This document shows, in pieces, positions 797 through 18,649 of a DNA stretch of 56,211 nucleotides; within the stretch, counting starts at the first letter, position 1, and each line of letters starts with the position of its first letter. The position numbers and the translations under genes were made by a program. This DNA comes from Gemmatimonadota bacterium (GTDB taxonomy: Bacteria; Gemmatimonadota; Gemmatimonadetes; Longimicrobiales; Longimicrobiaceae): contig JAQBQD010000062.1 of the NCBI GenBank assembly GCA_028287185.1, positions 1 through 56,211 of the forward strand, read 5' to 3'. The notes under the pieces were generated by a model. It made no database searches. It saw nothing but the letters and a program-made list of their open reading frames with translations, and was not told the origin of the DNA.

Positions 797-2089
797 ATGA
801 ACGGAATGGGACGCAGGGTTGCCATCGTGGAAGGGTGCCGGACGCCGTTCGCCCGGTCGGGGACGGTGTTCAAGGGGGTGTCGGCCGTGGAGCTGGGCAA
901 GATCGCCGTGCGCGAGCTGATCGCCCGCTCGGAGGTGGACGTGAAGGAGATCGACCACGTGGTCTACGGCACCGTGGTCCAGTCCGTCCAGGAGCCGAAC
1001 ATCGCCCGCGAGGTCACCCTGGGCTCGGGCATCCCCGCCACCGTCCCGGCGTTCACGGTGGGACGCGCCTGCGCCTCGTCCAACCAGGCCATCACCAGCG
1101 GCGCCGAGCAGATCGCGCTGGGCATGGCGGACGTGGTGGTGGCGGGCGGCGCGGAGTCGCTCACCGACGTGCCCATCCTCTTCTCGCCGCAGATGCGCGA
1201 CGTGCTGGTGCGCGCCAGCAAGGCCCGCAGCCTGGGCGAGCGCCTGAGGGCGTTCGCGTCCATCCGCCCCGCCTACCTGACGCCCGTGACCCCGGCCATT
1301 GCCGAGCCCACGACGGGGCTCACCATGGGCCAGTCGGCCGAGAAGATGGCGCAGGAGAACGGCATCACCCGCGAGGCGCAGGACCGCTGGGCGCTGCGCT
1401 CGCACCAGCTCGCCGCCGCCGCCACCGCGGACGGCCGCCTCACGCGCGAGATCGCGCCGGCGTTCATCCCCCCGCGCTACTCCGAGGTGGTGACGAGCGA
1501 CAACGGCATCCGCGCCGACACCTCGCTGGAGAAGCTGGCCATGCTCAAGCCCGCCTTCGACAAGAAGTGGGGCACGGTGACGGCCGGCAACGCGTCGCCT
1601 CTCACGGACGGGGGCAGCGCGGTGCTGCTGATGAGCGAGGAGAAGGCGAAGGCGCTGGGATACACCCCGCTGGGCTACATCCGCAGCTACGCCTACGCGG
1701 CGCTGGCGCCCTCGGACCAGCTTCTCCAGGGGCCCGTCTTCGCGGCGCCGGTGGCGCTGGAGCGTGCGGGGCTGACCATGAAGGACATCGACCTGCTGGA
1801 GATCCACGAGGCCTTCGCGGCGCAGGTGCTCAGCAACCTGCAGTGGTTCGACTCGGACAGGATCGCGCAGGAGCGCCTGGGCCGCCCCAAGGCGATCGGC
1901 ATTCCCGACGAGGACCGCATCAACGTGATGGGCGGCTCTCTGGCCATCGGCCATCCCTTCGGCGCGACCGGCGGGCGCATCACGGTCACGCTGCTGAACG
2001 AGCTGAAGCGCCGCGGCCAGCAGTTCGGGATGATCTCCGTCTGCGCCGCCGGCGCGATGGGCTTCGTGATGATCGTGGAGCGGGAGTAG
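797..2089 (+). CDS. fadI: Acetyl-CoA C-acyltransferase (FadI-type thiolase)
   Basis: A 430-residue thiolase that cleaves 3-ketoacyl-CoA (or condenses acyl-CoA) in fatty-acid beta-oxidation. The nucleophilic cysteine is in GRACASSNQA, the catalytic histidines in EIHEAFAAQ and AIGHPFGATGGR, and the second cysteine in VCAAGAMG; all four expected residues are present and the length fits the family. The FadI flavour is suggested by the run around ITREAQDRWALRSHQLAA. I chose ATG 797 because it follows a GGAGAGGCGAG-like ribosome binding site and begins just before the conserved RRVAIVEGCRTPF; the frame extends further upstream without homology. No FadJ-like partner is adjacent. A hairpin terminator follows. 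An acetoacetyl-CoA thiolase role is the main alternative. Confidence 0.9.
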   Translation: MNGMGRRVAIVEGCRTPFARSGTVFKGVSAVELGKIAVRELIARSEVDVKEIDHVVYGTVVQSVQEPNIAREVTLGSGIPATVPAFTVGRACASSNQAITSGAEQIALGMADVVVAGGAESLTDVPILFSPQMRDVLVRASKARSLGERLRAFASIRPAYLTPVTPAIAEPTTGLTMGQSAEKMAQENGITREAQDRWALRSHQLAAAATADGRLTREIAPAFIPPRYSEVVTSDNGIRADTSLEKLAMLKPAFDKKWGTVTAGNASPLTDGGSAVLLMSEEKAKALGYTPLGYIRSYAYAALAPSDQLLQGPVFAAPVALERAGLTMKDIDLLEIHEAFAAQVLSNLQWFDSDRIAQERLGRPKAIGIPDEDRINVMGGSLAIGHPFGATGGRITVTLLNELKRRGQQFGMISVCAAGAMGFVMIVERE

Positions 2090-4038: not shown

Positions 4039-4309
4039 TCGTGAACGGTGCACGTGAAGGGGACGGCCATGACGACGTCGGCATCGAACGCGACAGGCTA
4101 CGTCGCTCCCCCCGCCGCTGCAAGCCCGTGCTCGGCGCTCGGAAGACGGTTTCGGCGCGCGCGGTGGGCGATTCAACGGCGGCCTGGGCCGTGCGTCTCG
4201 CTGCCGCTTCAACCCTGGAGGCGTGAGGTTCTGGATCCAAGGCCGCCGGGTCGCCCCGGCCGTGAGGGCCATCGGTGCACGCGGGGCATCGTGACTGCTT
4301 AACGAGGGC

Positions 4310-4852
4310 TTACACCGCGCACGCCTCGTACAGGCGCAGGCGCAGGCGCACGCGGTCCAGCACGCGCTCGGTGGGCCAGCCCTGGGCGAACTCGCCGACG
4401 GCCTGGGCCACCTCGGCGGCCAGCTCGCGGCCGGGCACCGCGCCCAGGAGCTGCGCGATCCACCACCCGGGCACCAGGTCGGCCAGGGCGAACAGGTCGG
4501 CGATGCGCTCCTCGCGGGCCGTCCACCCGTCGTCGGCCAGGAAGACGGCGCCATCGGCATCGCCCGCCAGCACGTGCGCCAGCTCGTGGCGCAGGGCGAA
4601 GGTGCGCTCCACGCGGTCGCCGTCGCGGTTCACGAACACGGGATACACGCCGCCGCACCGCGGGAGCACCATGGCGGCGGCGGTGGACTGGAACGGGAAC
4701 ACCTCGAGGTGGCAGCCCGCGCCGCGCAGCAGGCCCGCCACCTGGTCGGTGCGCACGGGCGACTGCGGGCCGGCGTACGCGGGCTCGTGCCCACGCGCAA
4801 GGTCCAGCAGGCGGCCCACCGCCCGGCACAAGCCGTCCTCGTCAGACCTCAT
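4310..4852 (-). CDS. ImmA/IrrE-like metallopeptidase
   Basis: A 180-residue protein with the zinc-protease motif HELAH (residues 89-93) inside TFALRHELAHVLAGD, followed by an acidic helix EERIADLFALADLV that supplies the usual third ligand. ImmA-type proteases cleave Xre-family repressors during induction of integrative elements and phage-like clusters. It overlaps the upstream repressor gene by 11 nt, so the two form one operon transcribed away from the tail cassette. I infer that it inactivates that repressor upon stress. Which cleavage site is used cannot be told from sequence. Confidence 0.8.
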   Translation of the reverse strand: MRSDEDGLCRAVGRLLDLARGHEPAYAGPQSPVRTDQVAGLLRGAGCHLEVFPFQSTAAAMVLPRCGGVYPVFVNRDGDRVERTFALRHELAHVLAGDADGAVFLADDGWTAREERIADLFALADLVPGWWIAQLLGAVPGRELAAEVAQAVGEFAQGWPTERVLDRVRLRLRLYEACAV

Positions 4853-5273
4853 CGCCCTCCACGCGGTCCCTCAGCTCGTACCACCAGTCCGGCAGCGCCG
4901 CGCGCGCGGTGAGCATGCGGCGCAACCCCTCCAGCGCGTCCAGCTTGCGGGCGCGCGCCTCGCCCGCGGGCCCGATGCCCCCCAGGAAGCGCACCACGGC
5001 GTCGAAGGAGGAGAACAGGTCCTCGCCCTCGCGCTCCACGGGGGCGGCGCGCCCGCTTCCGGTGCCGTGCCGCAGCCAGCCCGCGTCCACCCCCGCCCAC
5101 TCGGCGATGCGCTCCACGTGGTAGGGCAGCGCCACCGAGCCGCCCGTCTCCCAGCGCGCGATGGAGCCGCTGTGCACCCCCAGCCGCGCGGCCAGCGCGG
5201 GCCGGTCCAGCCCCAAGCGTTCGCGCGCCTCGCGCAGCCGCCGGCCCACGGCCCGGCGTTCGTCAACGTCCAT
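4842..5273 (-). CDS. Xre/cI-type repressor of the tail cassette
   Basis: A 143-residue protein with an N-terminal helix-turn-helix (about residues 8-60; LDRPALAARLGVHSGSIARW contains the recognition helix) and a charged C-terminal half (WWYELRDRVE near the end). The start ATG 5271-5273 (MDVDERRAVGRR) is preferred over an in-frame start 14 codons upstream, because that extension would run into the operator. It is followed by an ImmA-like protease gene with an 11-nt overlap. The neighbouring inverted repeats at 5292-5352 are its most likely binding sites. No LexA-type self-cleavage domain is visible, consistent with protease-mediated derepression. Confidence 0.8.
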   Translation of the reverse strand: MDVDERRAVGRRLREARERLGLDRPALAARLGVHSGSIARWETGGSVALPYHVERIAEWAGVDAGWLRHGTGSGRAAPVEREGEDLFSSFDAVVRFLGGIGPAGEARARKLDALEGLRRMLTARAALPDWWYELRDRVEGDEV

Positions 5274-5291
5274 CACACCTCCACGGAGCAG

Positions 5292-5352
5292 CGTATGACA
5301 CCCTTGACATGCCACGCGCTTTTGTTAAATTCGTCATACGAAGGGCGTGGCA
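5292..5352. promoter_or_regulatory. Operator: two interlocked inverted repeats
   Basis: CGTATGAC (5292-5299) pairs with GTCATACG (5333-5340), and TGCCACGC (5310-5317) pairs with GCGTGGCA (5345-5352). Both pairs are exact 8-mers and bracket the -35/-10 of the rightward promoter in the repressor/Ogr-like intergenic region. This is the layout of a phage-type operator. Confidence 0.6.
5304..5331 (+). promoter_or_regulatory. Rightward sigma70-type promoter
   Basis: TTGACA (5304-5309), a 16-bp spacer and TAAATT (5326-5331), in a locally AT-rich patch upstream of the zinc-finger gene at 5461. It overlaps the interlocked inverted repeats. Confidence 0.65.
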
Positions 5353-5460
5353 CCTGTGCACGACGTTAAGGTATGCGCAAGCGCACGGTGCGACAAGGGT
5401 TCGGCGTCCCTTCAAGGACGCGCCGCCGCGGCCTGCGCGGCGCGCAACGCAAGGAGCAAG

Positions 5461-5736
5461 ATGCGGGACGGAGCATGCACGGAGCCGCAGGGCGGCCTCG
5501 CCCAGGGGACGGGCGCGGGCGCCGGCGCGGAAGGGGAGGAGCGCGGCGAGCTGCTGCGCCTTTCGGCGAGCTGCCCGCGCTGCGGATCGCGGCCGGCCAT
5601 GCGGATCACGCGGCCCCTGGTGGCGGCGCTGGGCGCCGAGCCGGGCACGCGCAGGCTGGCCACCTACCAGTGCCAGCGCCGCGGGTGCGGGGCCGTGTAC
5701 GACCTGGCGGCGGAGGCGTTCCGCCGGGCCTCGTAG
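5461..5736 (+). CDS. Ogr/Delta-like zinc-finger protein
   Basis: A 91-residue protein with four cysteines in the Ogr/Delta arrangement: CPRCG near residue 39, then YQCQRRGCGAVYDL near residue 70. P2 Ogr and related small proteins activate late tail genes by contacting RNA polymerase alpha; the role here is inferred from motif and position. The N-terminal 33 residues are Gly/Ala/Glu-rich and low complexity. ATG 5461 follows AAGGAGCAAG, a good ribosome binding site; the open frame further upstream lacks one. It lies between the repressor operator and the tail-operon promoter, suggesting a relay from repressor to tail genes. A generic zinc ribbon is the alternative. Confidence 0.6.
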   Translation: MRDGACTEPQGGLAQGTGAGAGAEGEERGELLRLSASCPRCGSRPAMRITRPLVAALGAEPGTRRLATYQCQRRGCGAVYDLAAEAFRRAS

Positions 5737-5756
5737 AAAGCGGGCGATTCACGTCC

Positions 5757-5785
5757 TTGACAGGAAGACGCGGCGCGGGTAGGTT
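5757..5785 (+). promoter_or_regulatory. Tail operon promoter
   Basis: TTGACA (5757-5762), a 17-bp spacer and TAGGTT (5780-5785). Transcription would begin near 5792, about 190 nt before the first tail gene. Confidence 0.65.
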
Positions 5786-5829
5786 GATACCGAACGAACA
5801 CCGAAGATAAATCCGAGACATCGGCCGGT

Positions 5830-5868
5830 AAAGGCCCCTCACGGCACAGCGCCCGTGCAGGGGCCTTT
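5830..5868 (+). terminator. Leader hairpin/terminator inside the tail operon 5' region
   Basis: AAAGGCCCCT (5830-5839) pairs perfectly with AGGGGCCTTT (5859-5868). An inner CACGG/CCGTG stem follows, and the 3' arm itself ends in TTT. It lies downstream of the promoter at 5757-5785 and upstream of the first tail gene, so it would stop most transcripts unless bypassed. Confidence 0.65.
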
Positions 5869-5978
5869 CTGCGTCCCTGAACCGCGGGCAACGGCCCGCA
5901 CACCCGCCCCTTCCGCCGCGGCCGGGCGGCGGAAAGGGGATCCCGGTCCGGTCACACCCTTCACACGGGGAGAGCGCG

Positions 5979-6377
5979 TTGAGCACATCATCGGCGATAG
6001 GACAGCTGTCGGAGGCGGTGGTGACCCTCCTCCAGGGATACGACCTCCTCACGGACACGATCGACGGCATGGTCATCCTTCCCACGGGGGTGCCGATCCC
6101 GCCGTTCGTGCGGCTGGGGGAGAAGACCGAGAAGAACCTGCGCACCTTCTCGACCGTGGGCACCCAGGCGTCCATCGCGATCGAGATCGCGGTGCCCGGG
6201 GCCACGGACGACGGCGCGATGGAGGCCTACGGGCTGATCAAGACCCTCCTCGAGGCCCAGCCGCTGCCCATGGTGAGCCGCACCATCGTGCAGAAGGACG
6301 TGACGCTCGAGAAGACGAGCGTGGACGCGGACGGAGTGACCTGGCGCGTCTTCGCGCGGCTGGACGCGACGCTGTAG
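5979..6377 (+). CDS. Tail terminator / completion protein (DUF3168-like)
   Basis: A 132-residue protein with the layout of siphophage tail terminator (gpU-like, DUF3168) proteins: helical N-terminus (AVVTLLQGYDLLTDTI), a central beta stretch (ASIAIEIAV), a helix (GAMEAYGLIKTLLE) and a C-terminal strand ending TWRVFARLDATL. Such proteins cap the tube at the head-proximal end; with no capsid gene nearby, the cap would close the particle. The start is TTG 5979 after GGGGAGAG at 5967-5974; no ATG or GTG gives a comparable start. It is the first gene of the tail operon. Family assignment rests on fold pattern and gene order. Confidence 0.65.
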   Translation: MSTSSAIGQLSEAVVTLLQGYDLLTDTIDGMVILPTGVPIPPFVRLGEKTEKNLRTFSTVGTQASIAIEIAVPGATDDGAMEAYGLIKTLLEAQPLPMVSRTIVQKDVTLEKTSVDADGVTWRVFARLDATL

Positions 6378-6435
6378 GCGGCACGCGGCACCGTTCCGGA
6401 AGTCTCATCCAACACAACGAACAGGAGCAGCAGAC

Positions 6436-6834
6436 ATGGCCATCTCGGGCAAGACTCTCGTGGTGAAGGTCGGCGCGGCGCAGGCGGGCCCGTTCACCCT
6501 GGTGTCGGAGCTGAAGGACGCTTCGTTCAGCCAGTCGGGCGCCAACCAGGACGTCAGCACCTTCGACGTGGACTGGATGAAGCGCATCCAGGGCCTCAAG
6601 GACGGCTCGTTCTCGCTGAGCGGCTTCTACGCCCCCACGGACACCAACGGCCAGGTGGCAATCCGCAACGCGTGGCTGAACGACACCCCGCTCTTCATCC
6701 AGTACCTGCCGAACGCCACCGCCGGGTTCCAGCAGGAGGTGAAGGTCTCGAAGTTCGACATCAAGGCCAGCGCGAGCGGCGTCGCCGAGGTCTCCATCGA
6801 GCTCGAGGGCAACGGCGCCATCACGGCCGTCTGA
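6436..6834 (+). CDS. Major tail tube protein
   Basis: A 132-residue, beta-rich protein (MAISGKTLVVKVG...; DVSTFDVDWMKRIQGLKDGS; VSIELEGNGAITAV), typical in size and composition of siphophage/F-pyocin tube subunits, which stack as hexameric rings. The LKDGSFSLSGFY segment and the closing VSIELEGNG strand match the usual tube beta-sandwich. The ATG follows AGGAGCAGCAGAC. It is between the tail terminator and a second, longer tube-like protein, the standard tail-module order. Membrane segments and signal peptide are absent. Confidence 0.7.
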   Translation: MAISGKTLVVKVGAAQAGPFTLVSELKDASFSQSGANQDVSTFDVDWMKRIQGLKDGSFSLSGFYAPTDTNGQVAIRNAWLNDTPLFIQYLPNATAGFQQEVKVSKFDIKASASGVAEVSIELEGNGAITAV

Positions 6835-6847
6835 GCGGGGAGGCGAA

Positions 6848-7489
6848 ATGGCAATCGCGGGGCGCAAAGCCCAGGTGAAGGTGGCCGGCGCGCTCGTCGC
6901 CTTCACGAACGAGCCCACCACGGCGGTCACGCCGCTGGTGGACTACCAGGTCACGAACGCCGTCAAGCGGGTGTGGGACCGCTCGATGACCCCCACGGTG
7001 CAGGTCTCCACCGACGGCGGCACCACGTACCCCACCGTGTCGGCCAGCCTGTACACCATCAACCGGCTGACCGGGACGGTGACCTTCGCGCCGGCCCTGA
7101 CGGGCTCGCCGCTGGTGCGGGTGAGCGGATCGTACCTGCCGCTGTCGGTGGTGGCCGAGGCCAGCGAGTACAGCTACTCGCTCACGGCCAAGAACGCGGA
7201 CTACCCCCGGCTGGGGGACGTCTACGCCACCCGGGTGCAGACGCTGAAGGACGTGAGCGGCTCGCTGTCGCGGTGGTACGCGGCGGACCCGTACTTCACC
7301 AACGCCCTCACGGGCGAGACGCCGGTGCTGCTGGAGTTCTACGCCAGCTCGGCCTCCGCGCCCGACCTGCGCTGCTGGGCGGTGGTGAACAAGGAGGAGA
7401 TCAAGGCGGCCCTCGACGGCCTGACGGAGACGACCGTCTCCTGGGAAGGCGCGTCGGACACGGAAGGGAGGTCGATCAGTGTCGTCTAA
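6848..7489 (+). CDS. Second tail-tube-like protein with inserted domain
   Basis: A 213-residue protein whose N-terminus (MAIAGRKAQVKVAGALVAF) parallels the preceding tube protein (MAISGKTLVVKVG), and whose C-terminal half has the same LKDVSGSLSRWY-type segment and closing strand (TETTVSWEGASD). Between them lies an extra beta-rich insertion (VQVSTDGGTTYP...RLTGTVTFAP). It therefore looks like a decorated tube paralogue, either co-assembling in the tube or forming an adaptor ring. It starts 13 nt after the first tube gene, with GGGGAGGCGAA as binding site, and overlaps the chaperone gene by 11 nt. Confidence 0.6.
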   Translation: MAIAGRKAQVKVAGALVAFTNEPTTAVTPLVDYQVTNAVKRVWDRSMTPTVQVSTDGGTTYPTVSASLYTINRLTGTVTFAPALTGSPLVRVSGSYLPLSVVAEASEYSYSLTAKNADYPRLGDVYATRVQTLKDVSGSLSRWYAADPYFTNALTGETPVLLEFYASSASAPDLRCWAVVNKEEIKAALDGLTETTVSWEGASDTEGRSISVV

Positions 7490-7868
7490 CCTGAGGTCCA
7501 GGATCCTGGAGGCGGTGGACATCCGCCGCGAGACGGTGGAGATCCCCGAGTGGGGAACGGCCGTGGAGGTGCGCGGCCTGACGGGGACGCAACGCGCGAA
7601 GCTGATGAAGACCGGCTTCGACGCGAAGGGCGCGGCGGACTTCGAGAAGCTCTACCCGGAGCTGATCATCTCCAGCACGTTCGACCCGGCGACGGGCGAG
7701 GCCGTGTTCTCGGAGGCCGACCGCGACGCGCTGAACGGCAAGAGCGGCGCGGCGCTGGAGCGGATCGCGCAGGCGGCCATGCGCCTGTCAGGCCTCACGC
7801 CCGACGCCGCGGAGCAGGCGGAAAAAAACTCCGAGCCGACCCCGAGCGCCGCTTCTACTTCGAGCTAG
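7479..7868 (+). CDS. Tail assembly chaperone, unshifted (gpG-like) form
   Basis: A 129-residue product beginning at GTG 7479, overlapping the preceding gene by 11 nt. It has VEIPEWGTAVEVRGLTGTQR near the N-terminus, the usual opening of siphophage tail assembly chaperones, and a helical C-terminus. These proteins coat the tape measure before tube polymerisation. The zero frame ends in a low-complexity tail (SEPTPSAASTSS) directly after the slippery site, whereas the -1 frame continues as a conserved-looking domain. This is the same arrangement as lambda G/GT. Confidence 0.75.
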   Translation: MSSNLRSRILEAVDIRRETVEIPEWGTAVEVRGLTGTQRAKLMKTGFDAKGAADFEKLYPELIISSTFDPATGEAVFSEADRDALNGKSGAALERIAQAAMRLSGLTPDAAEQAEKNSEPTPSAASTSS

Positions 7869-8017
7869 CCGAGGCCCTGGGCTGCACCGTGCCGGAGCTT
7901 CTGCGCCGCGTCAGCTCGGAGGAGATCACCGAGTGGGCGGCGGTGTGGAAGATCCGGCACGAGGAGGAGGAGAAGGCACAGAAGGAGTCAGACCGGAGGG
8001 GCCGGTCGCGGCGCTGA
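7479..8017 (+). CDS. Tail assembly chaperone, -1 frameshift (gpGT-like) form
   Basis: A -1 slip at A AAA AAC (7823-7829) moves ribosomes from the G frame at codon 117 into the frame running from 7829 to the stop at 8017, giving a predicted 179-residue fusion. The shifted part reads LRADPERRFYFELAEALG, then PELLRRVSSEEITEWAAVW and a Glu/Lys-rich helix, which is the typical T domain of tail chaperones. The shifted frame has no start codon of its own near the junction. The exact tandem slippery heptamer in the right phase, and the tape measure immediately downstream, support programmed frameshifting. Confidence 0.8.
7823..7829 (+). other. Programmed -1 frameshift site A AAA AAC
   Basis: The run is G followed by seven A and then C. 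In the G frame the codons are GAA AAA AAC, so both tRNAs can re-pair one base back (AAA, AAA). The downstream GC-rich sequence could fold, but I cannot define a specific stimulatory structure by eye. Confidence 0.8.
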
Positions 8018-8113
8018 GGCGCCGCGGCCGGCGGACCCGGTGCGAAGTCCCCAGCCCGCGCGCCCGACCGGGGCGGCCGCGGGCGGTTTCTTCCTCGCAA
8101 CGGAGACGAGATC

Positions 8114-10783
8114 GTGGCAACCAGCGAAGGCGGCGAGGCTCCCACCGCGCCGCCTCCCGGACTGCTGGGAAGGCTCCAGACGCTCGGGCAGGCGGCGAAG
8201 TCGATGGGGGAGAAGTTTTCCGCGATGGGCGAGGCGGTGAAGCAGGTCACGGAGCCGTTCATGTCGGCGTACGAGGCTTCGGCTACCCTCGCGGAGTCTC
8301 TCAACAAGCTGAACGACAGCTCGGGCCAGCAGGCGGGCAAGCTTTCCGCCGCGCAGGAGCAGGCGAGGAAGCTCGCCGAGAGCCTCGGCGTCCTGTCCGC
8401 GGCGACGGGCAAGATCCGGCCCGACATCCAGGCACAGATCGACTCCACGCTCGCCATCGGCGAGGCGTGGGGGCACTTCAAGAATCAGCTCGCGCTGGTG
8501 GGCATGCAGATCGTGAGCGCCCTCTCGCCGATCCTGGTGCAGCTCATCAGCAACATGCACCCCATCCTCGAGGCCGCGCAGGGGGTGGCGAACTGGTTCG
8601 GCCACCTGAGCGGAGGAACGCAGCACCTCATCGTGGCGGTGGGGGCGGCGATCGCGATCTTCGGCGGGCTGATGGGCGTGATCGGCCCGATCGTGGGCGT
8701 GTTCGGGGCCGTCGCGGTCGCCGTCGCGGCGCTGGGTGCCCCCGTCGTTGGCGTCATCGCGGGGATCGCTGCGGTGATCGCCATCCTCGCGGCGATCTGG
8801 ATCACCTGGGGGGACAAGATCACCGCCTGGCTCCAGTGGCTGGTCCAGACCGTGTCGAACGGCTTCGCCAGCATGGTGGACTTCGTCCGCTCCCACCTGC
8901 TCGCCATCGCGGTGGCGGTGGACGCGTGGCTGAGCTCGCTGCTGGGGCCGATGAAGACTCTCGAGGACTACCTGGCCAACCAGTTTCCCCACGCGGTGAA
9001 GCAGGGGTTCCTGGACCTGATTGCCGGTGTCGAGGCGCTGCCCGCGACGCTGGCCGCGGCCCTGGGCCAGATCGTGACGGTGGTCACGGACGTCGTCACC
9101 AACCGAATCCCCGCGGCGTTCGCGGCCGGGTGGGAGATGGTGAAGTCGGGTGCGGTGGAGCTGGGCAACTACCTGGGTGGGGTGTTCACCCGGGCCCTCA
9201 ACTCGGTGCTGGGCGCGGTGCAGTCGTTCGGACAGCAGATCGCCGGGATGATCGGCTCGGCGGTCACCTCCGCGCTGGGGTTCTTCTCGGACCTGTGGAC
9301 CTTCCTGAGCGAGGACCTGCCGGGCCTTCTGGCGGGGTTCCCGGCCAAGCTGGGCCAGTGGGCCAACGCGGTGGGCGACTGGGCCTGGAACGCGGTCACC
9401 CAGTTCATCGACGCGCTGAAGAGCCTGCCCAGCTACATCGAGAACCAGCTGCTGCCCCGGCTACTGGAAGCGGGGAAGGCGCTGTGGCGGAACCTGATCC
9501 ACGGCATGTTCGAGGCGATGAGGGAAGGCGTGGGAGCGGCGCACCAGGCGGTCGAATGGTTCGAAGGGCTTTTCGGCCCCGATCCCGGCCGTGCGCCGGC
9601 GCCCGGGCCAGCTCCGGCACCGGCTCCCCGTCCTGTCCGTCCTCCCGGACCGGCGGCGCCGCCCACGGTGGCTCCGCAGGCCCAGCCGGTCCAGCCGCGG
9701 AGCGTCGTCCGAAACCAGCAGCGGCACGCCACGGCGATCGGATTCCAGAACGTGTCGTTCACGCAGGTGCACTACAGCGCCCCGACATCGGCGGGCGCAC
9801 CTTCCGTGGGTGGGACGACGGGGGCGGCGGAAACCCTGCGGGGCGCTCCGGTGACGGCGGTAACCCTCCCGGAGCAGACGACCGTGACGGTGGGAGGAGT
9901 CACAGCGGTGGACGCCTCCGACAACTCCGACAAGGCCGCCGCGGTGGCGGGGAAGCAGGCGACCGCCGCAGGCCAGCCGACCGGCTTCTTCAGCCAGGCG
10001 ATGAAGGCGGGCAGCGACGCGCTGACTTCGTTCCGCGGTGCGATGGTGGGTGTCGTGGGCCAGTTCACGCCAATGGGGCTGGTCGCCGAGTTCCTGGGCG
10101 ACGTGTTCAAGGGGATGCAACCGGCCATCGACTCGCTGAAGGCGCCGCTCAAGCTGGTGGCGCAGCTCTTCGGCGCCGCGCTGGCGCCCATCCTGAAGGC
10201 CATCTTCCCGCTGTTCAAGCTGGTCGCCATCGCGGCCACCTACGTGGGGCAGATCTTCTTCACCGTCGCGGGGGGCATCGCCAAGTTCATCGGCGGGCTG
10301 ATCGTGGGGGTGGGCAAGGCCATCGGCAAGATCCCCTTCCTGGGCGGGCTGGGAAAGACGATCCAGAAGGCCGGCGAGGGGATCGAGAACGTGGGCAAGG
10401 GGATGCAGGACGGTGCCAAGGAGCTGGCCAAGGGGCGCGAGCAGCTCCAGGCCATGGAGTTCGGCGACACCGCCGACAAGGTGCAGAAGCTGAACGAGTC
10501 GCTGACCAACACCCCGGAGGGCTTCAAGGTGGCGCTGGCGCGCTTCGAGGCCACGGCGCCGCTGCAGGCGACGCTTCCCGGGTCGAGCTCCGGCGGCTCC
10601 GGCGGCGGCGGCGGCTCGGACGGCTCGGACGGCGCATCCAGCGCCACGGGCCGCCACATCTCCATCGGAAACGTCCAGATCGTCTCCAACGATCCCGAGG
10701 ACATCTGGAAGAAGCTGAAGCGGGTGATCGAGCGCGAGAACAACCGCTCCTCGGGCTCCCTCTACTCCCCCGCACCGGCATGA
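8114..10783 (+). CDS. Tape measure protein
   Basis: An 889-residue, Ala/Gly-rich protein with long hydrophobic and helical stretches (for example residues 170-240, alternating VAVGAAIAIFGGLMGVIGPIV-like segments), directly after the G/GT chaperone genes. Tape measures set tail length; using the usual figure of about 1.5 angstrom per residue this would give a tube of roughly 130 nm, which is an estimate only. The GTG start at 8114 follows an AACGGAGACGAG-type site. Unusual features are a Pro/Ala-rich segment at about residues 488-535 and a Gly/Ser-rich linker at about 822-845 (GGSGGGGGSDGSDG). No peptidoglycan hydrolase motif is evident. Confidence 0.75.
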   Translation: MATSEGGEAPTAPPPGLLGRLQTLGQAAKSMGEKFSAMGEAVKQVTEPFMSAYEASATLAESLNKLNDSSGQQAGKLSAAQEQARKLAESLGVLSAATGKIRPDIQAQIDSTLAIGEAWGHFKNQLALVGMQIVSALSPILVQLISNMHPILEAAQGVANWFGHLSGGTQHLIVAVGAAIAIFGGLMGVIGPIVGVFGAVAVAVAALGAPVVGVIAGIAAVIAILAAIWITWGDKITAWLQWLVQTVSNGFASMVDFVRSHLLAIAVAVDAWLSSLLGPMKTLEDYLANQFPHAVKQGFLDLIAGVEALPATLAAALGQIVTVVTDVVTNRIPAAFAAGWEMVKSGAVELGNYLGGVFTRALNSVLGAVQSFGQQIAGMIGSAVTSALGFFSDLWTFLSEDLPGLLAGFPAKLGQWANAVGDWAWNAVTQFIDALKSLPSYIENQLLPRLLEAGKALWRNLIHGMFEAMREGVGAAHQAVEWFEGLFGPDPGRAPAPGPAPAPAPRPVRPPGPAAPPTVAPQAQPVQPRSVVRNQQRHATAIGFQNVSFTQVHYSAPTSAGAPSVGGTTGAAETLRGAPVTAVTLPEQTTVTVGGVTAVDASDNSDKAAAVAGKQATAAGQPTGFFSQAMKAGSDALTSFRGAMVGVVGQFTPMGLVAEFLGDVFKGMQPAIDSLKAPLKLVAQLFGAALAPILKAIFPLFKLVAIAATYVGQIFFTVAGGIAKFIGGLIVGVGKAIGKIPFLGGLGKTIQKAGEGIENVGKGMQDGAKELAKGREQLQAMEFGDTADKVQKLNESLTNTPEGFKVALARFEATAPLQATLPGSSSGGSGGGGGSDGSDGASSATGRHISIGNVQIVSNDPEDIWKKLKRVIERENNRSSGSLYSPAPA

Positions 10784-10793
10784 AGGAGAACCA

Positions 10794-11129
10794 ATGGCAT
10801 TCCTGATCGTGGGATCCGTGACCGTGCCGGTGGCGGTCGACGGCGCGTCGATGGAGGTGGAGCAGGTGGGCGACCGGGCGCGCGCGTTCGACGGCACCAT
10901 GCGCTCCACGCGGCGGGCCACCAAGCACCGCTGGAAGGTGAAGACGGCCGCGATGGCGAGCCCCGACACCCTGCTGACGACGCTGCTGGGCCCGCCGCCC
11001 ATCCCCTGCAGCGGCGACCTGCTGGGCGGCAGCGTGCAGTGCGACGCCGAGGTTACGGCGGTGGTGTTCAGCCCCGCGCCCGGCGGGACGGCGCGCCGCA
11101 CCGTCGAGTTCATCCTCCACGAGGTGTGA
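10794..11129 (+). CDS. Small distal-tail-like protein
   Basis: A 111-residue beta-rich protein between the tape measure and the hub/fibre gene. It has DRARAFDGTMRSTRRATKHR and closes with RRTVEFILHEV. Its position matches the distal tail (Dit) or a small baseplate adaptor in siphophages, but it is shorter than most Dit proteins, so the role is inferred from context. The ATG follows GAAGGAGAACCA, with 10 nt separating it from the tape measure. One base separates its stop from the next gene's start, so they are probably coupled. Confidence 0.5.
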   Translation: MAFLIVGSVTVPVAVDGASMEVEQVGDRARAFDGTMRSTRRATKHRWKVKTAAMASPDTLLTTLLGPPPIPCSGDLLGGSVQCDAEVTAVVFSPAPGGTARRTVEFILHEV

Positions 11130-11130
11130 C

Positions 11131-14100: not shown

Positions 14101-17100
14101 ACGCTGGACAACGTCCAGGACATCGGCACCTACAAGCGCACCACCGCCGGCGAGAAGGCGGGCGCGGGCCGCGCGTCGGTCGCGCTGGACGCCGGCAACC
14201 GGCTCGTCACCGAGGTGCATTCCACGGCGCTGGTCGGGGGGCGCAGGGCATCCGCGGTGGTGGACGAGGCGCGCAGGGGCGCCGCCCAGCGTGGGCCGAA
14301 CCTGGTCGCCAACCCCGATGCGGAGACGGGCGACGTCGACGCGCCGCCGGGCTACGTCTACAACTGGACGGGCGCGTCGCGGGTTCCGAGCACCACCGCG
14401 CGCAGCGGAGGCTGGGTGCTCGAGGCTTCGGGGCAGATCATCGTCGCCTCGCAGGAGCTGATCCCCGTGGACACGGCGCGCAACTACCTGTTCTCGGCGA
14501 GCGTGCGCAACGCCTCGGGGCCGGCGGCGCCGCTGTTCCTGATGCTGCTGTGCTACGACCAGAACAGGCGCTTCATCGACTCGCAGGCGGTGTACGCGCC
14601 GGGCGGCATCTTCGGCACGCTGGCCTCGGCCGTGTCCGCGGGGGCCACCAGCGTCACGCTGGCCGACGCCGGCGCCTTTCCCGTTGACGGAAACAGCTAC
14701 CTGGCGTTCGGGGCCGCGCTCGACAACTCCGATTTGCCCAACTACTCGTTCGCGGCGTACACGGGCAGGTCGGGGAACACGCTCACGGGCTTCGCCCCCC
14801 TGGCGCAGGGATACCCGGCCGGCACCCGGGTGCGCCTGCACCGGGCGGGCGGCACCTACCTGTACCTGGCCGCGGCCGGCGTGACGGCCCCGGCGGCGTG
14901 GACGGACTACTCGGCGACCATCACCGGTGCGTACGGGGGCGAATCCCTCGACAGCGACCGCTTCCGGGCCGGCACGCGCTACGTGGCCGTGGGCGCGCTG
15001 TCCAGCTGGAGCGGCGGCTCCACCGCGACGGTCCAGTACGACAGCTGGTTCTTCGGCGAGCTGTCGTACATCGAGCAGGCGCCCGGGGTGGTGGGCGGCG
15101 TGGAGGGGCGGCGGCGCGTGGACACGCTGTACAAGACCGACGGCAAGCTCCGCCCGGTCACCTGGCAGCGCGGGAGCACGGACGTGCTGGCCACCGACCT
15201 GTTCCAGAAGAACGTCGACACGCTGGACACCGTGGGGGACGGGGGCAGCTACGCCCGCACCACCTTGGACCAGCGGGACGCCGCGCAGGAGTTCCGCACG
15301 GGAAGCTTCGCGGTGGACGTGACGCGCGACCTGAACGGCGGGCTGGGATACTTCTTTCCCATGGACGGCTCGGCGGTCGACAGCCGGGGGTCGGTGGCGC
15401 CCCTGGCGGGGGCCACGTACGGCACGTACCGGGGCCTGGGCAGGTACGGCGGAGCCGTGTCGGTGTCGCGGCCGGCCACCAACCTGGTGGACACCGCCGC
15501 GGGTGCGGCGGGGATGGTGCTCGCCTCCTCGGGATGGGGCACGGGCACGGCGTCCACCGTTTCGGAGTACGCCGCCGTGCCCAACCCCCTGGGCCTGGAC
15601 CGGGTGGCGCACAGCCGCTTCACGGTGGGCCCGAGCGGGGGGATGAACTTCGGCATGTTCGGGGGGCTGTATCCCGTGTCGCCGGGGGGCACCGTCTCGG
15701 CCAGCTACTACCTGCGCGCCGACAACTGGGCGGCGTTCAACGGGACGCTCCTGTACTGCACGGAGTACGACGCGAGCGGCGCGCAGGTGTCCGGGGGGTC
15801 CCTGGTGGACGGGGTGTGGACGGCGGTGGGGGGCGGGTGGAAGTGGATCAACGGCCGCCGCCCGGTGGGGCCAAGCACCACCGCGGTCCGCATCGGCCTG
15901 TACGGTTACGCCAGCGCGGACGTGTACTTCTGCGGGGGCAACGTGTCCACGGCCATCCGCCCGGAGCCGTTCCGGGTGGGCGCCCGGGGCCCGGGCGTGC
16001 TGCGCCTGCCGGTGAACCTGCGGGGCGACTGGACGGTGCGCGTGCTGGTTCGCCCGCTGCACGCCTCCGCGGACGGGTGGTCGACGGTCAAGGCCCTGCT
16101 CACGATGTACGACCGGAGCGGGAACTGGGTGTCCCTGGCGGCGGGATACGGCGCCGACCTGTACCTGGGCAATTCCGCCGTCCCGCTGGCCGTCACGGCG
16201 AATCGCCCGTACGACTTCCTGGACCCGATCGAGGTGGTGCTGGTGCGCGGCGGGACGACGGTCACCGCGTACGTGGACGGCTCGCCGTTCCTGGCGATCA
16301 CCGACGGCGCCAGCGGCGACATCTCGGAGATCCGGCTGGACGGCAGCGCGCAGGGATGGGGGGTGGACGCGCTGTACGAGGGGCTGCTGGCGGTACCCCG
16401 CGCGGCGAGCGCCACCGAGGTGAAGGCGTGGGCCAACGCCGGCGGCGCCATGTACGACGCGCTGGGGGGCGAGACGACGCGGCGGGTCGGGACGCTGCTG
16501 AACGGCGACGCGCAGCTCGCGCGGGGCGTGTCCAAGTTCGACGGCGTGCGGACGGTGCAGCTCGCGCAGTTCGCGCTGGCGGGGCGCGCGGCGCATGGCG
16601 ACGTGGTGCCCTTCACCCCCGCGTTCCAGAACATCCCCTCGGTGCTCTTCGGCATGGGCGGGGTGACGTACGACCCGACCCTGGGAACGGGGCCGCAGAC
16701 GGTGGAGGTGGTGGCCCAGAACCTGTCCCCCAGCGGCTTCACCATGCGCGCGGTCGTGAAGCAGGTGGCCACCACCACCATCACGTCCCGCACCGCCACG
16801 CCCTCGGTGGACGTGGCCACCAAGGGATACACGCCCGAAGCATACGACGGCACCTACCGATTCAACTACGAGGTCTCCATCGTGGGCGACGACCTGGGCG
16901 GCTTCACCATCGGCGGGAGCGTGGAGCTCGGGTTCTGGACGATGGCCCCCGGGGGCGGGTGGGTGCAGCGCGACTCGCGCACGTACGACAACAACACGGG
17001 CCACTTCCAGGCGTGGAACAACCAGCACGTGCTGGTGAGCGTGGCGGGGCTGGGGCTCGGCGCGCAGTTCCAGGTCACGGTCGAGTCCGACTCGTCCAAC

Positions 17101-17217
17101 GGGGCGAACCTGAGCTTCAACAGCGTGACCTGGGGCGAGGCCGCTGCGCCCGTCGAGCACAGCATGACGCCGGCCGGCGGCACGCTGATCCCGTTCCTCG
17201 CCCTCGGAGGTGGCTGA
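11131..17217 (+). CDS. Giant tail hub / receptor-binding fibre protein
   Basis: A 2028-residue protein starting at GTG 11131. Residues 1-430 look like a baseplate hub (WLTDVSWDDTVDEAVSQCTV; LVFHGDVDEVDWGKGESRV; LDALRKLAQQFGWDVRYRWD; VVAVKHHLSRDQQRSTI), followed by Ig/fibronectin-like repeats to about 960. A motif FRTNVDTLDNV...YKRTT near residue 988 recurs as FQKNVDTLDTV...YARTT near 1361. After the first copy is a carbohydrate-binding-like domain (about 1055-1310, NLVANPDAETGDV start), and after the second a LamG-like domain (about 1620-1770, YVDGSPFLAITDG). The end (1800-2028) is a beta-rich, probably receptor-binding tip. A single polypeptide appears to combine hub, stalk and adhesin. Domain names are by pattern, not by search. 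Confidence 0.7.
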   Translation: MRTLTTPQSTLLAGTTFRVSARVWVKDAWGTFRNLSALAGTDWLTDVSWDDTVDEAVSQCTVQLWREAYAQSLAPLKQGSPLNKDAQGNFGALLDMGREIKVEVATTAVGADPIATDWQLVFHGDVDEVDWGKGESRVQLVARDLGGRLLDRFVETELAYPAAGMATDAGGAVTVEALMQRLLDDNLGAGAVALWVPTSPGWKVGAYKQEREPVLDALRKLAQQFGWDVRYRWDAGTSSFRLKLFQPPRDRVVNQPGNAANTAPDFTFGPSRYLDVASLRLNRAGIRNFVQVQYLDKTPTGGSPVNVVRTAYAQDASSIAKYGRRFMEMQEDSESSSIDTPAEAAALATSVLSDLADPRAEQEVEMHLFWPAELGDYYLFLANGVHYDTDQVGAVVAVKHHLSRDQQRSTITTRGRASGAYRDWLRREVRVAGPAGAPEVEFKLEPADNAAGTAGTLAVTVTSGLANVARVEFFVTSGPGARSALQAPDRTPSAGRYEKDVALHEQHTSLIEPVITLVDGRVLQPGAETFDQGSQPAVVSLGAEVTETGAVVVTVRGDSDTQSFRVAVRKDRFPTAAETRAGALLVGSGVREAVATLLVGSELAVAETAYVGALAYNDPGGALKESPSMATTLTRRSDRVPPVVSPRVGSASGAVAADLYAKVGSAMKETVRLHVTHEGLNAPTWSLVAGAGDLTPLWVADGTELGPGSWFYPGTGLVAVQKLAAYPLARDQVTRVLFQAEGRDSQTRSAWVPLTLSVKEQPWLESVDLVFDETSDNVTLRAVGGAFVQSATLELADNAGFSLASAVTQAVTDGVAISTSRALSAGERGRTWHGRVTPYNGPAATGTAGASQRDSVAVPAGEGGGVEPPTAAIVYVSESGVSFTLQYTGTLGAGGTAPLQYRTRVSTDGAPGAFTAWAALPSSPFPQQSVGRLGSLNRVVALEVMDAAGRTTSDEYMVPARYDGLDPGSGLVDTGRPHKDGSTIFRTNVDTLDNVQDIGTYKRTTAGEKAGAGRASVALDAGNRLVTEVHSTALVGGRRASAVVDEARRGAAQRGPNLVANPDAETGDVDAPPGYVYNWTGASRVPSTTARSGGWVLEASGQIIVASQELIPVDTARNYLFSASVRNASGPAAPLFLMLLCYDQNRRFIDSQAVYAPGGIFGTLASAVSAGATSVTLADAGAFPVDGNSYLAFGAALDNSDLPNYSFAAYTGRSGNTLTGFAPLAQGYPAGTRVRLHRAGGTYLYLAAAGVTAPAAWTDYSATITGAYGGESLDSDRFRAGTRYVAVGALSSWSGGSTATVQYDSWFFGELSYIEQAPGVVGGVEGRRRVDTLYKTDGKLRPVTWQRGSTDVLATDLFQKNVDTLDTVGDGGSYARTTLDQRDAAQEFRTGSFAVDVTRDLNGGLGYFFPMDGSAVDSRGSVAPLAGATYGTYRGLGRYGGAVSVSRPATNLVDTAAGAAGMVLASSGWGTGTASTVSEYAAVPNPLGLDRVAHSRFTVGPSGGMNFGMFGGLYPVSPGGTVSASYYLRADNWAAFNGTLLYCTEYDASGAQVSGGSLVDGVWTAVGGGWKWINGRRPVGPSTTAVRIGLYGYASADVYFCGGNVSTAIRPEPFRVGARGPGVLRLPVNLRGDWTVRVLVRPLHASADGWSTVKALLTMYDRSGNWVSLAAGYGADLYLGNSAVPLAVTANRPYDFLDPIEVVLVRGGTTVTAYVDGSPFLAITDGASGDISEIRLDGSAQGWGVDALYEGLLAVPRAASATEVKAWANAGGAMYDALGGETTRRVGTLLNGDAQLARGVSKFDGVRTVQLAQFALAGRAAHGDVVPFTPAFQNIPSVLFGMGGVTYDPTLGTGPQTVEVVAQNLSPSGFTMRAVVKQVATTTITSRTATPSVDVATKGYTPEAYDGTYRFNYEVSIVGDDLGGFTIGGSVELGFWTMAPGGGWVQRDSRTYDNNTGHFQAWNNQHVLVSVAGLGLGAQFQVTVESDSSNGANLSFNSVTWGEAAAPVEHSMTPAGGTLIPFLALGGG

Positions 17218-17218
17218 C

Positions 17219-17674
17219 ATGAGCGCGCACGATGATTGGAAGCCCCGCACCCACGCGGACGTGGCGCGCGAGCGCCGCGCCCGCCCTCCCTCCCACGCCG
17301 GGGCGGCGCGGCTCGCGAAGGGGGCGGCCGCGGACGGGGCCCGCGAGGCGCTGGCGGCGGCCGCCGCCGGTCCCGCGACGGATCCCGGGCGGGAGCGGGT
17401 GACGTGCCCGCGGTGCGGGCGCCGCACCTGGGGCTTCGCCCTGCTGGAGGTGTCCGCTGTGCCCGCCGAGGTGCGGGCGGTGGGGCGGCGCGGTGCCCCG
17501 GCGGATGCCGCGGACGCCGCGGTGGCGGGCGGCGAGGAGTACGCCTGCGACGCATGCTGGACCGGGTGGGTGCGCGGCGGGCACATCGCCCGGCACGAGC
17601 TGGCGCGGGCGCTGGGCGCGCCCGAGGCGCTGGTGGCGCACGTGCAGGGGCAGGTCAACCACCACGTGCCGTGA
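17219..17674 (+). CDS. Zinc-ribbon protein of the tail operon
   Basis: A 151-residue protein with CPRCGRR near residue 64 and CDACW near residue 107, a split four-cysteine zinc ribbon. The N-terminus is charged (DDWKPRTHADVARERRAR) with an Ala-rich linker, and the C-terminus is histidine-rich (GHIARHELARALG; VNHHVP). ATG 17219 is preferred because GGAGG (17206-17210) is 8 nt upstream; a GTG at 17210 would overlap the hub gene. I do not recognise the family. A structural or regulatory role within the tail cluster is possible. Confidence 0.6.
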   Translation: MSAHDDWKPRTHADVARERRARPPSHAGAARLAKGAAADGAREALAAAAAGPATDPGRERVTCPRCGRRTWGFALLEVSAVPAEVRAVGRRGAPADAADAAVAGGEEYACDACWTGWVRGGHIARHELARALGAPEALVAHVQGQVNHHVP

Positions 17675-17753
17675 GCGCCCCCGGGCGCCCGGGGCACAAC
17701 CGCGCGGACCGCGACGGCTCCGCGCGCAACCGACGCAAAGGGAGGGATCGACG

Positions 17754-18122
17754 ATGGCCCAGGTGATCTTCGCCACCCCGCTGGACGCGTTCCGGCTGCA
17801 GGAGAACGACCTGAACATGGACTACGACGGCGGGCGCGTGGTGCTGGTGGGCGAGCAGGACGGCGCCCTGGAGGCGGCCACCGAGGTGCAGGGCGCCACG
17901 CTGGTGCTCAGCTACCGGCGCGACGAGCCCATGCGGCGCTGGCCGCTGTCCCGCGAGGACAGGGCGCGCCGCCGCTTCACGGTGCTGGTGCTGGAGGACA
18001 CCACCGAGCAGGAGCTGCACGCGGTGCGCGCCGCGCTGGGCGCGCCGGAGCTGCACGAGGAGGCCGCCCCGCCCGCGGACGCGCCGCCGCCGGCGGAGCT
18101 CGAACCCGCCGTGCTGCCGTAG
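17754..18122 (+). CDS. Small unknown protein of the tail operon
   Basis: A 122-residue protein starting at ATG 17754 after GGGAGGGATCG. The first 90 residues are a mixed alpha/beta region (MAQVIFATPLDAFRLQENDL; ATLVLSYRRDEPMRRWPL) ending with a helix (EQELHAVRAALG); the last 30 are Ala/Pro/Glu-rich and probably disordered. It lies in the tail operon between the zinc-ribbon gene and the one-span membrane protein. The family is not recognised; it could be a chaperone or fibre-associated protein, which is a guess from position only. Confidence 0.55.
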   Translation: MAQVIFATPLDAFRLQENDLNMDYDGGRVVLVGEQDGALEAATEVQGATLVLSYRRDEPMRRWPLSREDRARRRFTVLVLEDTTEQELHAVRAALGAPELHEEAAPPADAPPPAELEPAVLP

Positions 18123-18246
18123 CGGCGGCGCGGTCCGCGGGGGAGCGGGACCCGAGCCGTCCCGCCCGCCCCCCGGGCTTTCGTCCCCGGCGTGCCGCAC
18201 GGCCCGCCGACGCCACGGGGACGGACATCCAACGAAAGGCAGGAAC

Positions 18247-18630
18247 GTGAGCAACGAGAGCATCGTCACCCTTCACTGGTCCGACCTGGCGGGCGGCGGC
18301 GTCGTGGCCAGCATCCTCCTGCTCGCGCTGGTGGAGCGGCTGCGGCGCACCTTCGCCACCCGCGCCGACCTGAACGGCCTGGGCGACCGCGTGACGGGGC
18401 TGCACGACCAGGTGGTGCACGTGGCCGACACCGCGGACGCGGCGGAGGCCCTGGCCACCCGGGTGCAGGCCGAGCAGAAGCACCAGTGGGTGCGCGTGGC
18501 CGAGCAGGTGATGCGCCCCCTGGAGCGCATCACCGAGAAGCTGGAGTCGGTGAGCGTGGCCCAGGCCGCGCAGGCCGCCGCCATGGAGCAGATCAGCCGG
18601 CGCCTGGACGTGGGCGACCGCCGCGGATGA
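18247..18630 (+). CDS. One-span membrane protein, holin-like
   Basis: A 127-residue protein starting at GTG 18247 after AAAGGCAGGAAC. A single hydrophobic segment lies at about residues 14-29 (LAGGGVVASILLLALV), followed by a basic cluster (ERLRRTFATR) and a coiled-coil-like amphipathic C-terminus (LGDRVTGLHDQVVHVADTA and onward). Small proteins of this plan at the end of phage modules are holin-like or DUF2730-like. It is the only candidate here for particle release, and no endolysin gene was seen. It ends inside the operon terminator hairpin. Confidence 0.55.
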   Translation: MSNESIVTLHWSDLAGGGVVASILLLALVERLRRTFATRADLNGLGDRVTGLHDQVVHVADTADAAEALATRVQAEQKHQWVRVAEQVMRPLERITEKLESVSVAQAAQAAAMEQISRRLDVGDRRG

Positions 18631-18648
18631 GGCGGCGGCACGTTTTTT
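18618..18648 (+). terminator. Intrinsic terminator ending the tail operon
   Basis: CCGCCGC (18618-18624) pairs with GCGGCGG (18632-18638) and is followed by CAC GT6. The stem spans the stop codon of the preceding gene, and the next promoter starts 2 nt after the T run. Confidence 0.75.
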
Positions 18649-18649
18649 C

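Follow-up and report, generated by a model that had tools for sequence, protein, structure and literature searches.

The window analysed here, a stretch of 56,211 nucleotides from a draft genome assembly of 225 contigs, appears from its sequence to carry an intact head-less tail operon of the siphophage type at a fixed chromosomal site, which probably directs the production of an F-type tailocin. The first-pass annotation had proposed either a tailocin or a trimmed prophage. The F-type tailocin is suggested by the capsid-less, non-contractile tail operon, the phage-type repressor pair, the presence of the cassette on three further contigs and its fixed place, while the lack of an endolysin match, the occurrence of the tail block in only 2 of 21 family genomes and the short T run after the window hairpin speak against it. 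Open genes, a preserved slip site and the failure to find an integrase or att-like repeat make a trimmed prophage less likely. No F-type tailocin-like locus in Gemmatimonadota was found reported in the searchable literature, and the same was true for Longimicrobium in combination with tailocins. The literature on phage tail-like systems of Gemmatimonadota that was found concerns, judged by the titles, contractile and type VI systems.

The siphophage gene order described by the first-pass annotation was borne out, all of the named genes being present in that order with support from family profiles, and both members of the upstream ImmA/Xre pair matched their families over the cut-offs (Table 1). 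An alternative GTG start of the Xre repressor is possible at 5315. Domain searches placed most of the individual products, but tube protein 2 matched no family in profile searches, and the distal protein and the hub were placed only weakly. The distal protein of the related cassette L014 matches phrog_1194 with an E-value of 9e-5. The tube 1 profile matches the solved tail tube of RcGTA (6tba, E 5.9e-4; 8qhs, E 7.2e-6). The T part of the G/T pair is a -1 frame product that matches phrog_337 (E 1.1e-5), and a slip motif of six or seven A followed by C is present at the end of G in all 10 loci read, with the frames checked for the window only. The ten tail-operon frames of the window are free of internal stops. 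The zinc-ribbon gene and the hairpin leader upstream of the tail genes had been omitted from the first-pass list.

Table 1. Features of the tail cassette and its host flanks. Positions refer to the window.
Feature	Position	Strand	Basis
Thiolase, left host flank	797..2089	+	3-ketoacyl-CoA thiolase FadI match, E 2e-136
ImmA-like metalloprotease, IrrE N-terminal domain	4310..4852	-	PF06114 E 7.8e-5, over cut-off; phrog_87
Xre-type repressor	4842..5273	-	HTH_31 E 1.4e-8; phrog_2328 transcriptional repressor E 4.8e-13
8-bp inverted repeat CGTATGAC/GTCATACG, possible repressor operator	5292..5340	.	Flanks promoter TTGACA-16-TAAATT at 5304-5331
Small zinc-ribbon protein, predicted late-gene regulator	5461..5736	+	Ogr_Delta E 1.6e-4, below cut-off
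Proposed tail-operon promoter TTGACA-17-TAGGTT	5757..5785	+	
Hairpin leader RNA, terminator-like, loop CGGCACAGCGCCCG	5813..5880	+	Covariance model
Tail terminator/completion protein, TTG start	5979..6377	+	gp17, PF11367 E 1.5e-4, below curated cut-off
Tail tube protein 1	6436..6834	+	PF06199 E 4.5e-12; phrog_1407 E 1.3e-22
Tail tube protein 2, tube 1 paralogue	6848..7489	+	~29% identity to tube 1
Tail assembly chaperone G	7479..7868	+	phrog_344 E 9.6e-26
-1 slip heptamer A AAA AAC	7823..7829	+	T frame ends 8017
Tape measure protein, 889 aa	8114..10783	+	phrog_58 E 1.6e-28
Distal tail-like protein	10794..11129	+	Position; phrog_1194 weak, E 0.084
Hub/fibre, 2028 aa	11131..17217	+	phrog_1887 E 0.069; H-type lectin E 0.0079 at C end, below cut-off
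Zinc-ribbon-like protein, CxxC pairs by eye	17219..17674	+	Homologue at same place in L014
122-aa protein	17754..18122	+	No family match
Hydrophobic-N-end protein, possible holin	18247..18630	+	phrog_1625 (bacteriocin production or immunity) E 0.025
Terminator-like site closing operon	18618..18648	+	7 G-C pairs, then T run
cspA, right host flank	18928-19137	+	
murB, right host flank	19305-20255	-	

The reported absence of capsid, portal, terminase, integrase and sheath genes was confirmed, as profile searches of the cluster, which lies 4.3 kb from the left end of the contig, gave no match to head, packaging, integrase or sheath families. For 35 of the 36 genes called between 21.5 and 56.2 kb, the listed families likewise included no head, integrase or sheath family; three matches in that region are labelled tail or tail-spike. 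A contractile, eCIS or R-type tailocin reading was rejected because there is no sheath on the contig; the PF04984 sheath matches of the genome lie on contigs C131 and C152, and none lies on C179. A gene transfer agent was likewise rejected, since capsid, portal and terminase genes were not found and only the tube resembles RcGTA. The same applies to an intact prophage, for which integrase and head genes would be expected at the cassette; these are present on contig C5 of the same genome, which holds a distinct prophage that has terminase, portal, capsid and integrase genes. A comparison of positions 2085-6000 with 18600-18935 for att-like repeats yielded two shared 12-mers, against a mean of 0.75 and a maximum of 7 in shuffled sequences.

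No endolysin of the window cassette was matched in profile searches, and a possible holin, the 18247 product, is the only candidate release gene in it, which weakens the assignment to the F-type tailocins. The homologue of the 18247 product in L119 matches phrog_1625 with an E-value of 0.0023, and in G001, G009 and G020 its homologues are followed by a small membrane-type protein, in G001 by an M15 endolysin as well; an amidase lies nearby in G013. In the window's own genome such a membrane-type protein was not found (0 of 1), in a search that had no positive control.

The cassette occupies a fixed chromosomal site. In relatives, the cspA-murB neighbourhood is either empty, or contains only the ImmA, Xre and zinc-ribbon genes, or is occupied, and Xre homologues are found at the same locus. 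The thiolase adjoins cspA-murB in G003 and cspA in G007, and an 89% identical thiolase lies beside the regulator-only locus of G005.

The three other contigs with the cassette (L014, L025 and L027) have tubes that are 62-83% identical to that of the window, and the tail terminator is 47-50% identical in L014 and L025. The head position is taken by a zinc-ribbon gene in L027 and by a fibre gene in L025 (phrog_30742, E 8.9e-6), and L014 begins at the leader. Two of the three contigs show signs of a second cassette in tandem, the one in L014 resting on a single weak match (PF11367, E 0.0072). The tape measure of L014 has 788 aa, and no hub relative was found within the 7.8 kb of L027. By the NG86 method, dN was lower than dS in 6 of 6 comparisons of the window with L014 and in 6 of 6 with L025, the ratio against L014 being ~0.24 for tube 1 and 0.77 for the tail terminator; against L027, dN exceeded dS for the tail terminator and was nearly equal to it for the distal protein. 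These ratios are weak because dS is compressed by the extreme GC content at codon position 3.

A rival view is that the locus is a decaying prophage, from which head, replication and integration genes have been deleted and in which the tail operon is not yet broken. The rarity of the tail block in the family, the lack of an endolysin in the cassette, the G013 and G014 loci, which resemble leftovers and hold whole or fragmentary fibre, holin-like and Rhs genes, and the isolated 18247 homologue in G015 are in accordance with decay. However, the ten tail-operon genes are open and the slip site is kept, dN is below dS against both L014 and L025, and no att-like repeat exceeds chance. Moreover, chance decay would hardly be expected to repeat the same layout and the same leader in three other contigs at this level of tube identity. 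We regard decay as rather unlikely, and favour an F-type tailocin.

The same tube was also identified in six more distant loci, three of which belong to named Bacillota, with head or packaging genes upstream (all 10 proteins scanned). The window block thus looks head-stripped by comparison. Head genes beside the cluster, which the first-pass annotation had considered as evidence against its reading, were seen only in these more distant loci, such as Bacillota prophages; within the extent of the available sequence, the cassettes of the Longimicrobiaceae type showed none. Tube 1 had no match in phage records and the tape measure none in phage records or genome contigs; G matches 23 actinophage records, all with less than 60% identity.

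The hairpin leader before the cassettes is new here. The same hairpin opens 5 of 5 cassettes before the first tail gene, L025 and L027 having been found through their tube, independently of the leader. Its loop is nearly invariant and its stem covaries, the stem pairing exceeding all 500 shuffles on five measures. No match was found in Rfam apart from two chance matches far below their cut-offs. After the window hairpin the longest T run is 3, and 19 of 29 copies have a run of at least 4. A looser leader pattern was found on three stretches of a viral collection, all of them tail contigs, and the leader was not found in either of the two stretches of the own-genome prophage. The idea that the leader is exclusive to tails was rejected, since a search with the covariance model located it upstream of many further genes in the family: elsewhere in the family the leader is also located 5' of fibre, holin/endolysin and Rhs genes, and 12 of the 38 copies sit before still other genes. 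It is likely that the hairpin acts as the on-switch of the tail operon and that the cassette is controlled by antitermination.

Pairing of the zinc-ribbon protein with the leader is a guess, as 6 of the 12 zinc-ribbon loci read have no leader match (two each in G018 and G016, and those of G015 and G005) and leaders also precede other genes. A broader view is that Longimicrobiaceae possess a chromosomal weapons regulon, in which a phage-derived zinc-ribbon protein recognises the leader RNA and switches on separately promoted, interchangeable cassettes (tandem tails, fibres, holin-endolysin, Rhs). We consider this regulon speculative and unlikely; if it existed, one cell could build head-less tails with different tips.

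The zinc-ribbon protein encoded at 5461 is 46-53% identical to its counterparts in L027, G009 and G014, and the own-genome prophage encodes a weak relative (E 1.8e-8), whose gene overlaps that of the large terminase at the latter's end. The ImmA, Xre and zinc-ribbon regulators lie beside the tail genes, and stress control itself is a prediction. As a comparison for vertical inheritance, regulator and murB identities gave Spearman coefficients of 0.32 for Xre (8 genomes, nominal p 0.10), 0.40 for the zinc-ribbon protein (7 genomes, p 0.08) and 0.52 for ImmA (5 genomes, p 0.13). The inverted repeat upstream of the Xre gene is only a lead, because no such repeat was seen kept in the relatives read; a conserved operator between Xre and zinc-ribbon genes was rejected for the same reason. 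As to the suggested single promoter and single terminator, a terminator-like site closes the operon, but the scan gave 3 such sites against 3.5 in shuffles, so that this site is supported by its place, and the tail-operon promoter is a proposal. L014 (second copy), L025 and L027 have a similar element, TTGAC(A/C)-17-TA...T, 42-55 nt 5' of the hairpin core; it is a loose pattern with no chance control, and a stricter scan did not list the window promoter.

We propose that the Xre repressor, together with the ImmA protease, would keep the zinc-ribbon gene off until stress occurs. The zinc-ribbon protein, or another factor, might then enable transcription to continue through the promoter-proximal hairpin, in the way that AlpA acts on intrinsic terminators in Pseudomonas. 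The tube would assemble on the hub, with the tape measure setting its length and the tail terminator capping it. The flexible tube would be released by lysis, with an endolysin needed from elsewhere, bind target cells via the variable part and the C end of the hub, and kill related bacteria.

With regard to target binding, the hubs of L014 and the window are 65% identical over residues 1-1027 and 39% over residues 1721-2027, with no match between. The hub has a conserved N half, a variable middle and a potential lectin at the C end. Proteins encoded at the same place in G007 and the own-genome prophage resemble its N part at 33-34%, and in a prophage-like stretch of G007 a longer protein matches the distal protein at 40% with its N end. 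Hub and zinc-ribbon matches also fall on contigs of equal length in two further cases, of 54378 and 12947 bases, which speaks for the tailocin reading. A hub profile of three sequences had no match among solved structures, and structure models of the N and C parts were too poor to be used (mean pLDDT 40 and 32).

A hub of this size exceeds the needs of a plain tail tip, and Rhs genes follow copies of the leader in G009, G013 and G020 (PF05593, E 7.7e-19 in G013; the others by similarity to the G013 protein). This would suit a tail-shaped delivery device, akin to contractile injection systems but non-contractile, in which the hub and associated Rhs proteins deliver a toxin or other cargo. Yet searches of the window cassette matched neither an Rhs gene nor any other toxin, and the signal-peptide-like starts of the G013 and G020 Rhs proteins, noted by eye, suggest separate secretion, which leaves such a device improbable. 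Alternatively, the cassette might be a spare tail module borrowed by the C5 prophage or another phage to alter host range. The C5 prophage resides in the same genome with its own terminase, portal, capsid and integrase, and parts of its tape measure and hub show 34-40% similarity to those of the cassette. However, it also encodes connectors, a tube, a chaperone, a tape measure and hub-like proteins of its own, its tube is ~32% identical to that of the window, and it has no leader match, so we consider this highly improbable. With the F-type tailocin as the preferred reading, the headless cassette, the empty-site comparison, the tandem signs and the leader RNA make the domestication of a phage tail directly testable, and the same locus makes testable how late genes are switched without a phage.

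F-type tailocins are rare: in the relevant part of one account, only F-pyocin and monocin are named, besides rhizoviticin, as exceptions among mostly R-type particles (PMC10811719). As described there, the F-pyocins of Pseudomonas, the monocin of Listeria and the rhizoviticin of Allorhizobium vitis likewise consist of head-less siphophage-type tail genes adjoined by phage-type regulators, and rhizoviticin also includes a DUF3168 gene and also has no head genes (PMC10811719). F-pyocin genes, too, occupy a fixed place, trpE-trpG, in the account of PMC8609362. As far as these sources describe them, F-type tailocins are regulated by PrtR/PrtN or a LexA-family repressor, whereas the window has ImmA, Xre and zinc-ribbon proteins; the window further differs in that no lysin was found in the cassette and a hairpin leader precedes each cassette.

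The proposed switch resembles the AlpR-AlpA system of P. aeruginosa, for which PMC7969949 and PMC9371919 outline a repressor that is relieved by stress, a small factor with a positive effect and, ahead of lysis genes, an intrinsic terminator close to the promoter. According to the former, the DNA element at which AlpA loads lies between -35 and -10, whereas in the window system the conserved part is an RNA hairpin and the promoter spacers differ (PMC7969949). Com of phage Mu, a small zinc-finger protein reading an RNA hairpin-loop motif, offers another likeness; in the description given in PMC6483171 it acts on translation, unlike the switch proposed here. The match of the L027 zinc-ribbon protein to Com is not significant (E 0.077), and that of the window has none.

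Finally, the window belongs to another phylum than the F-type tailocins covered by these sources, and its tube is related to Bacillota tail blocks. The loci of Ammoniphilus (L045), Lihuaxuella (L046) and Laceyella (L047) have the same order of tube 1, tube 2, G and T, and a tube 1 that is 49-60% identical to that of the window, but differ from it by a terminase, portal and/or major head protein gene upstream.

The window is the complete contig C179 (56,211 bases) of a 6.04 Mb host assembly in 225 contigs. The genes of its tail cluster run in the order ImmA, Xre, zinc-ribbon protein, tail terminator, tube 1, tube 2, G with a −1 slip to T, tape measure, distal protein, hub/fibre and three small genes, and all ten frames of the tail operon are open. 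This bears out the earlier claim of tail genes in siphophage order with an ImmA/Xre pair upstream. A lysin, which is a membership feature of F-type tailocins, was not found in the window cluster; the features that define this kind are its particles and their killing, both of which are predictions for the locus. The cluster is best read as an F-type tailocin-like locus, a reading that we consider fairly probable, and it would be predicted to work like an F-type tailocin. It is a putative variant of this kind, not a proven tailocin.

Positions of the features discussed, and the genes behind the 38 leader copies as sorted by the authors
Feature	Position	Leader copies	Remark
HD-domain protein gene and small overlapping partner	window 2174-4038		between thiolase and ImmA
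Tail cluster	window 4310-18648		
Leader, window copy	window 5813-5880		
Possible holin gene	window 18247-18630 (+)		
Right-hand genes	window 21.5-55.3 kb		three matches labelled tail or tail-spike (phrog_2234, phrog_7458, phrog_14442)
Separate prophage, same genome	C5 ~76-116 kb (L015, L016)		
Large related non-tail proteins behind a leader	L114 7603-15166, L118 11214-13091, L121 2749-4802		G020, G012; leader sometimes doubled
Rhs-type genes directly 3' of a leader	L112 10524-14984, L059 10296-15044, L131 2-1978		G013, G009, G020; adjoining holin-like genes in G013 and G009
Downstream: tail terminator genes		5	
Downstream: fibre-like genes		5	some placed only by hub similarity or by reading
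Downstream: genes like the possible holin gene		8	
Downstream: Rhs genes		5	two are gene starts only, at a contig end
Downstream: zinc-ribbon gene		1	
Within G014, at its decayed murB locus		2	
Downstream: other or unassigned genes		12	

Judged by gene order in related genomes (G-numbers), the site of the tail cassette in the chromosome is fixed. murB was found in 19 of the 21 family genomes and its surroundings were read in these 19, for part of them over up to 12 features per side. G003 has thiolase-cspA-murB without the regulators, and G007 has thiolase-cspA. ImmA-Xre, zinc-ribbon, cspA and murB are present without tail genes in G015, G016 and G018; G005 has the same genes, but with the order of ImmA and Xre swapped and the zinc-ribbon gene called only in part. 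In the window, the cassette lies between zinc-ribbon and cspA. G009 shows Xre-cspA-murB. Xre and zinc-ribbon are also present in G013 and G014, where the stretch from them to murB holds leaders and, in G013, fibre, holin-like and Rhs genes or, in G014, fragments; cspA was called in neither. No regulators were seen beside murB in the stretches read of G001, G002, G006, G008, G011, G017, G019 and G020, some of which stop at a contig edge. In G001, ImmA-Xre, zinc-ribbon, fibre and holin-endolysin genes lie on a different short contig, and the murB of G004 is interrupted by stops. No counterpart of the window's HD-domain gene was called at the G005 locus; together with its partner, this gene is possibly an extra insert.

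Tube 1 has 87 protein relatives, and its profile matched 20 loci of the viral collection as well as 4 on genome contigs, some contigs being common to both (L014, L023, L024 and L044 are a single contig, counted once). In six more distant loci, all ten upstream proteins scanned, which were chosen by size and position, were head or packaging proteins, and the tail block is therefore common to ordinary tailed phages. The first-pass annotation had raised head genes beside the tail block in relatives as a point against a tail-only cassette; this point stands for the six distant loci, whereas among the cassettes of the Longimicrobiaceae type, as far as their short contigs reach, the head position is occupied by the zinc-ribbon gene in the window and L027, and in L025 a fibre gene ends there (tail fibre phrog_30742, E 8.9e-6). 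The L014 contig starts at the leader and is uninformative here. The genes after the distal protein of L027 are tail-fibre-like, and no hub relative was seen there; the last of these genes best matches a tail fibre family (E 1.1e-51), and it also has a match (E 3e-17) to one family with the label head and packaging, virion structural protein. Three headless tail cassettes are entered in IMG/VR as viral contigs (3300037853_000063, 3300045391_007562 and 3300000828_000034), the first of which also belongs to a Gemmatimonadota MAG. Another family of the phylum has weak tube 1 relatives in three of its genomes (G061 C22, G138 C82, G324 C12; E 3e-10 to 4e-4).

The prophage on contig C5 of the window genome is separate from the cassette and carries genes for large terminase, portal, major head protein, connectors, tape measure, a hub-like protein and a phage integrase. 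Given its sheath-family genes on contigs C131 and C152, the genome probably has contractile injection systems as well; sheath matches were found in 15 of the 21 family genomes, 13 of them over the cut-off.

The leader ahead of the first tail gene has a terminator-like fold. Its stem pairing exceeded that of all 500 shuffles by five measures and that of all six slid controls, in an alignment that was fitted to the model and hence leans that way. Among 29 copies with a recognisable core, 19 (the window copy not included) are followed by a run of at least four T residues, and 12 have a promoter-like match upstream, which ends 42-56 nt ahead of the core in the window, L014 (second copy), L025 and L027. 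In 41 genomes, a pattern from three leader copies matched once in the window genome and twice in G012, and its reversed control not at all. Each match precedes a tail terminator gene, that of the second G012 copy being weakly matched. A looser pattern found three stretches in the viral collection, all tail cassettes, and across the phylum it matched in 3 of 395 genomes. At E 0.01, a covariance model built from 11 copies detected the leader in 13 of the 21 family genomes (in 9 of them at 1e-5), and it found the 38 tabulated copies in 42 stretches, a biased sample in which many were picked for having leader matches.

The zinc-ribbon protein is weakly similar to Ogr/Delta, and in the genome's own prophage a weak relative overlaps the terminase gene at its end, which would suit a phage late regulator. 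Our preferred guess is that it would act as a small positive factor that reads the leader hairpin as RNA, because the conserved part is the hairpin loop itself. A simple pairing of protein and leader is opposed by the 12 of 38 leaders before other genes and by the zinc-ribbon loci without a leader match, 6 of 12 in a count that omits one match on C207 and three weaker prophage-type relatives, found in G007, in G010 and in the prophage of the window genome. On contig C226 of G009 (L059/L060), the place of ImmA-Xre ahead of a zinc-ribbon/leader/fibre array is taken by a protein whose DNA-binding domain is of the LexA type, as if regulators had been swapped.

Known systems offer parallels. Mu Com, a small zinc protein that recognises a hairpin loop, is a precedent for a zinc-ribbon protein reading the leader (PMC6483171), and the PrtR-PrtN-P-box arrangement of pyocins parallels the layout of the cassette (PMC8609362). 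The AlpR-AlpA system, in which AlpA enables RNA polymerase to bypass terminators, has the same layout as the one that is likely for the window cassette, i.e. a repressor, a small positive factor, a promoter and an immediate terminator (PMC7969949).
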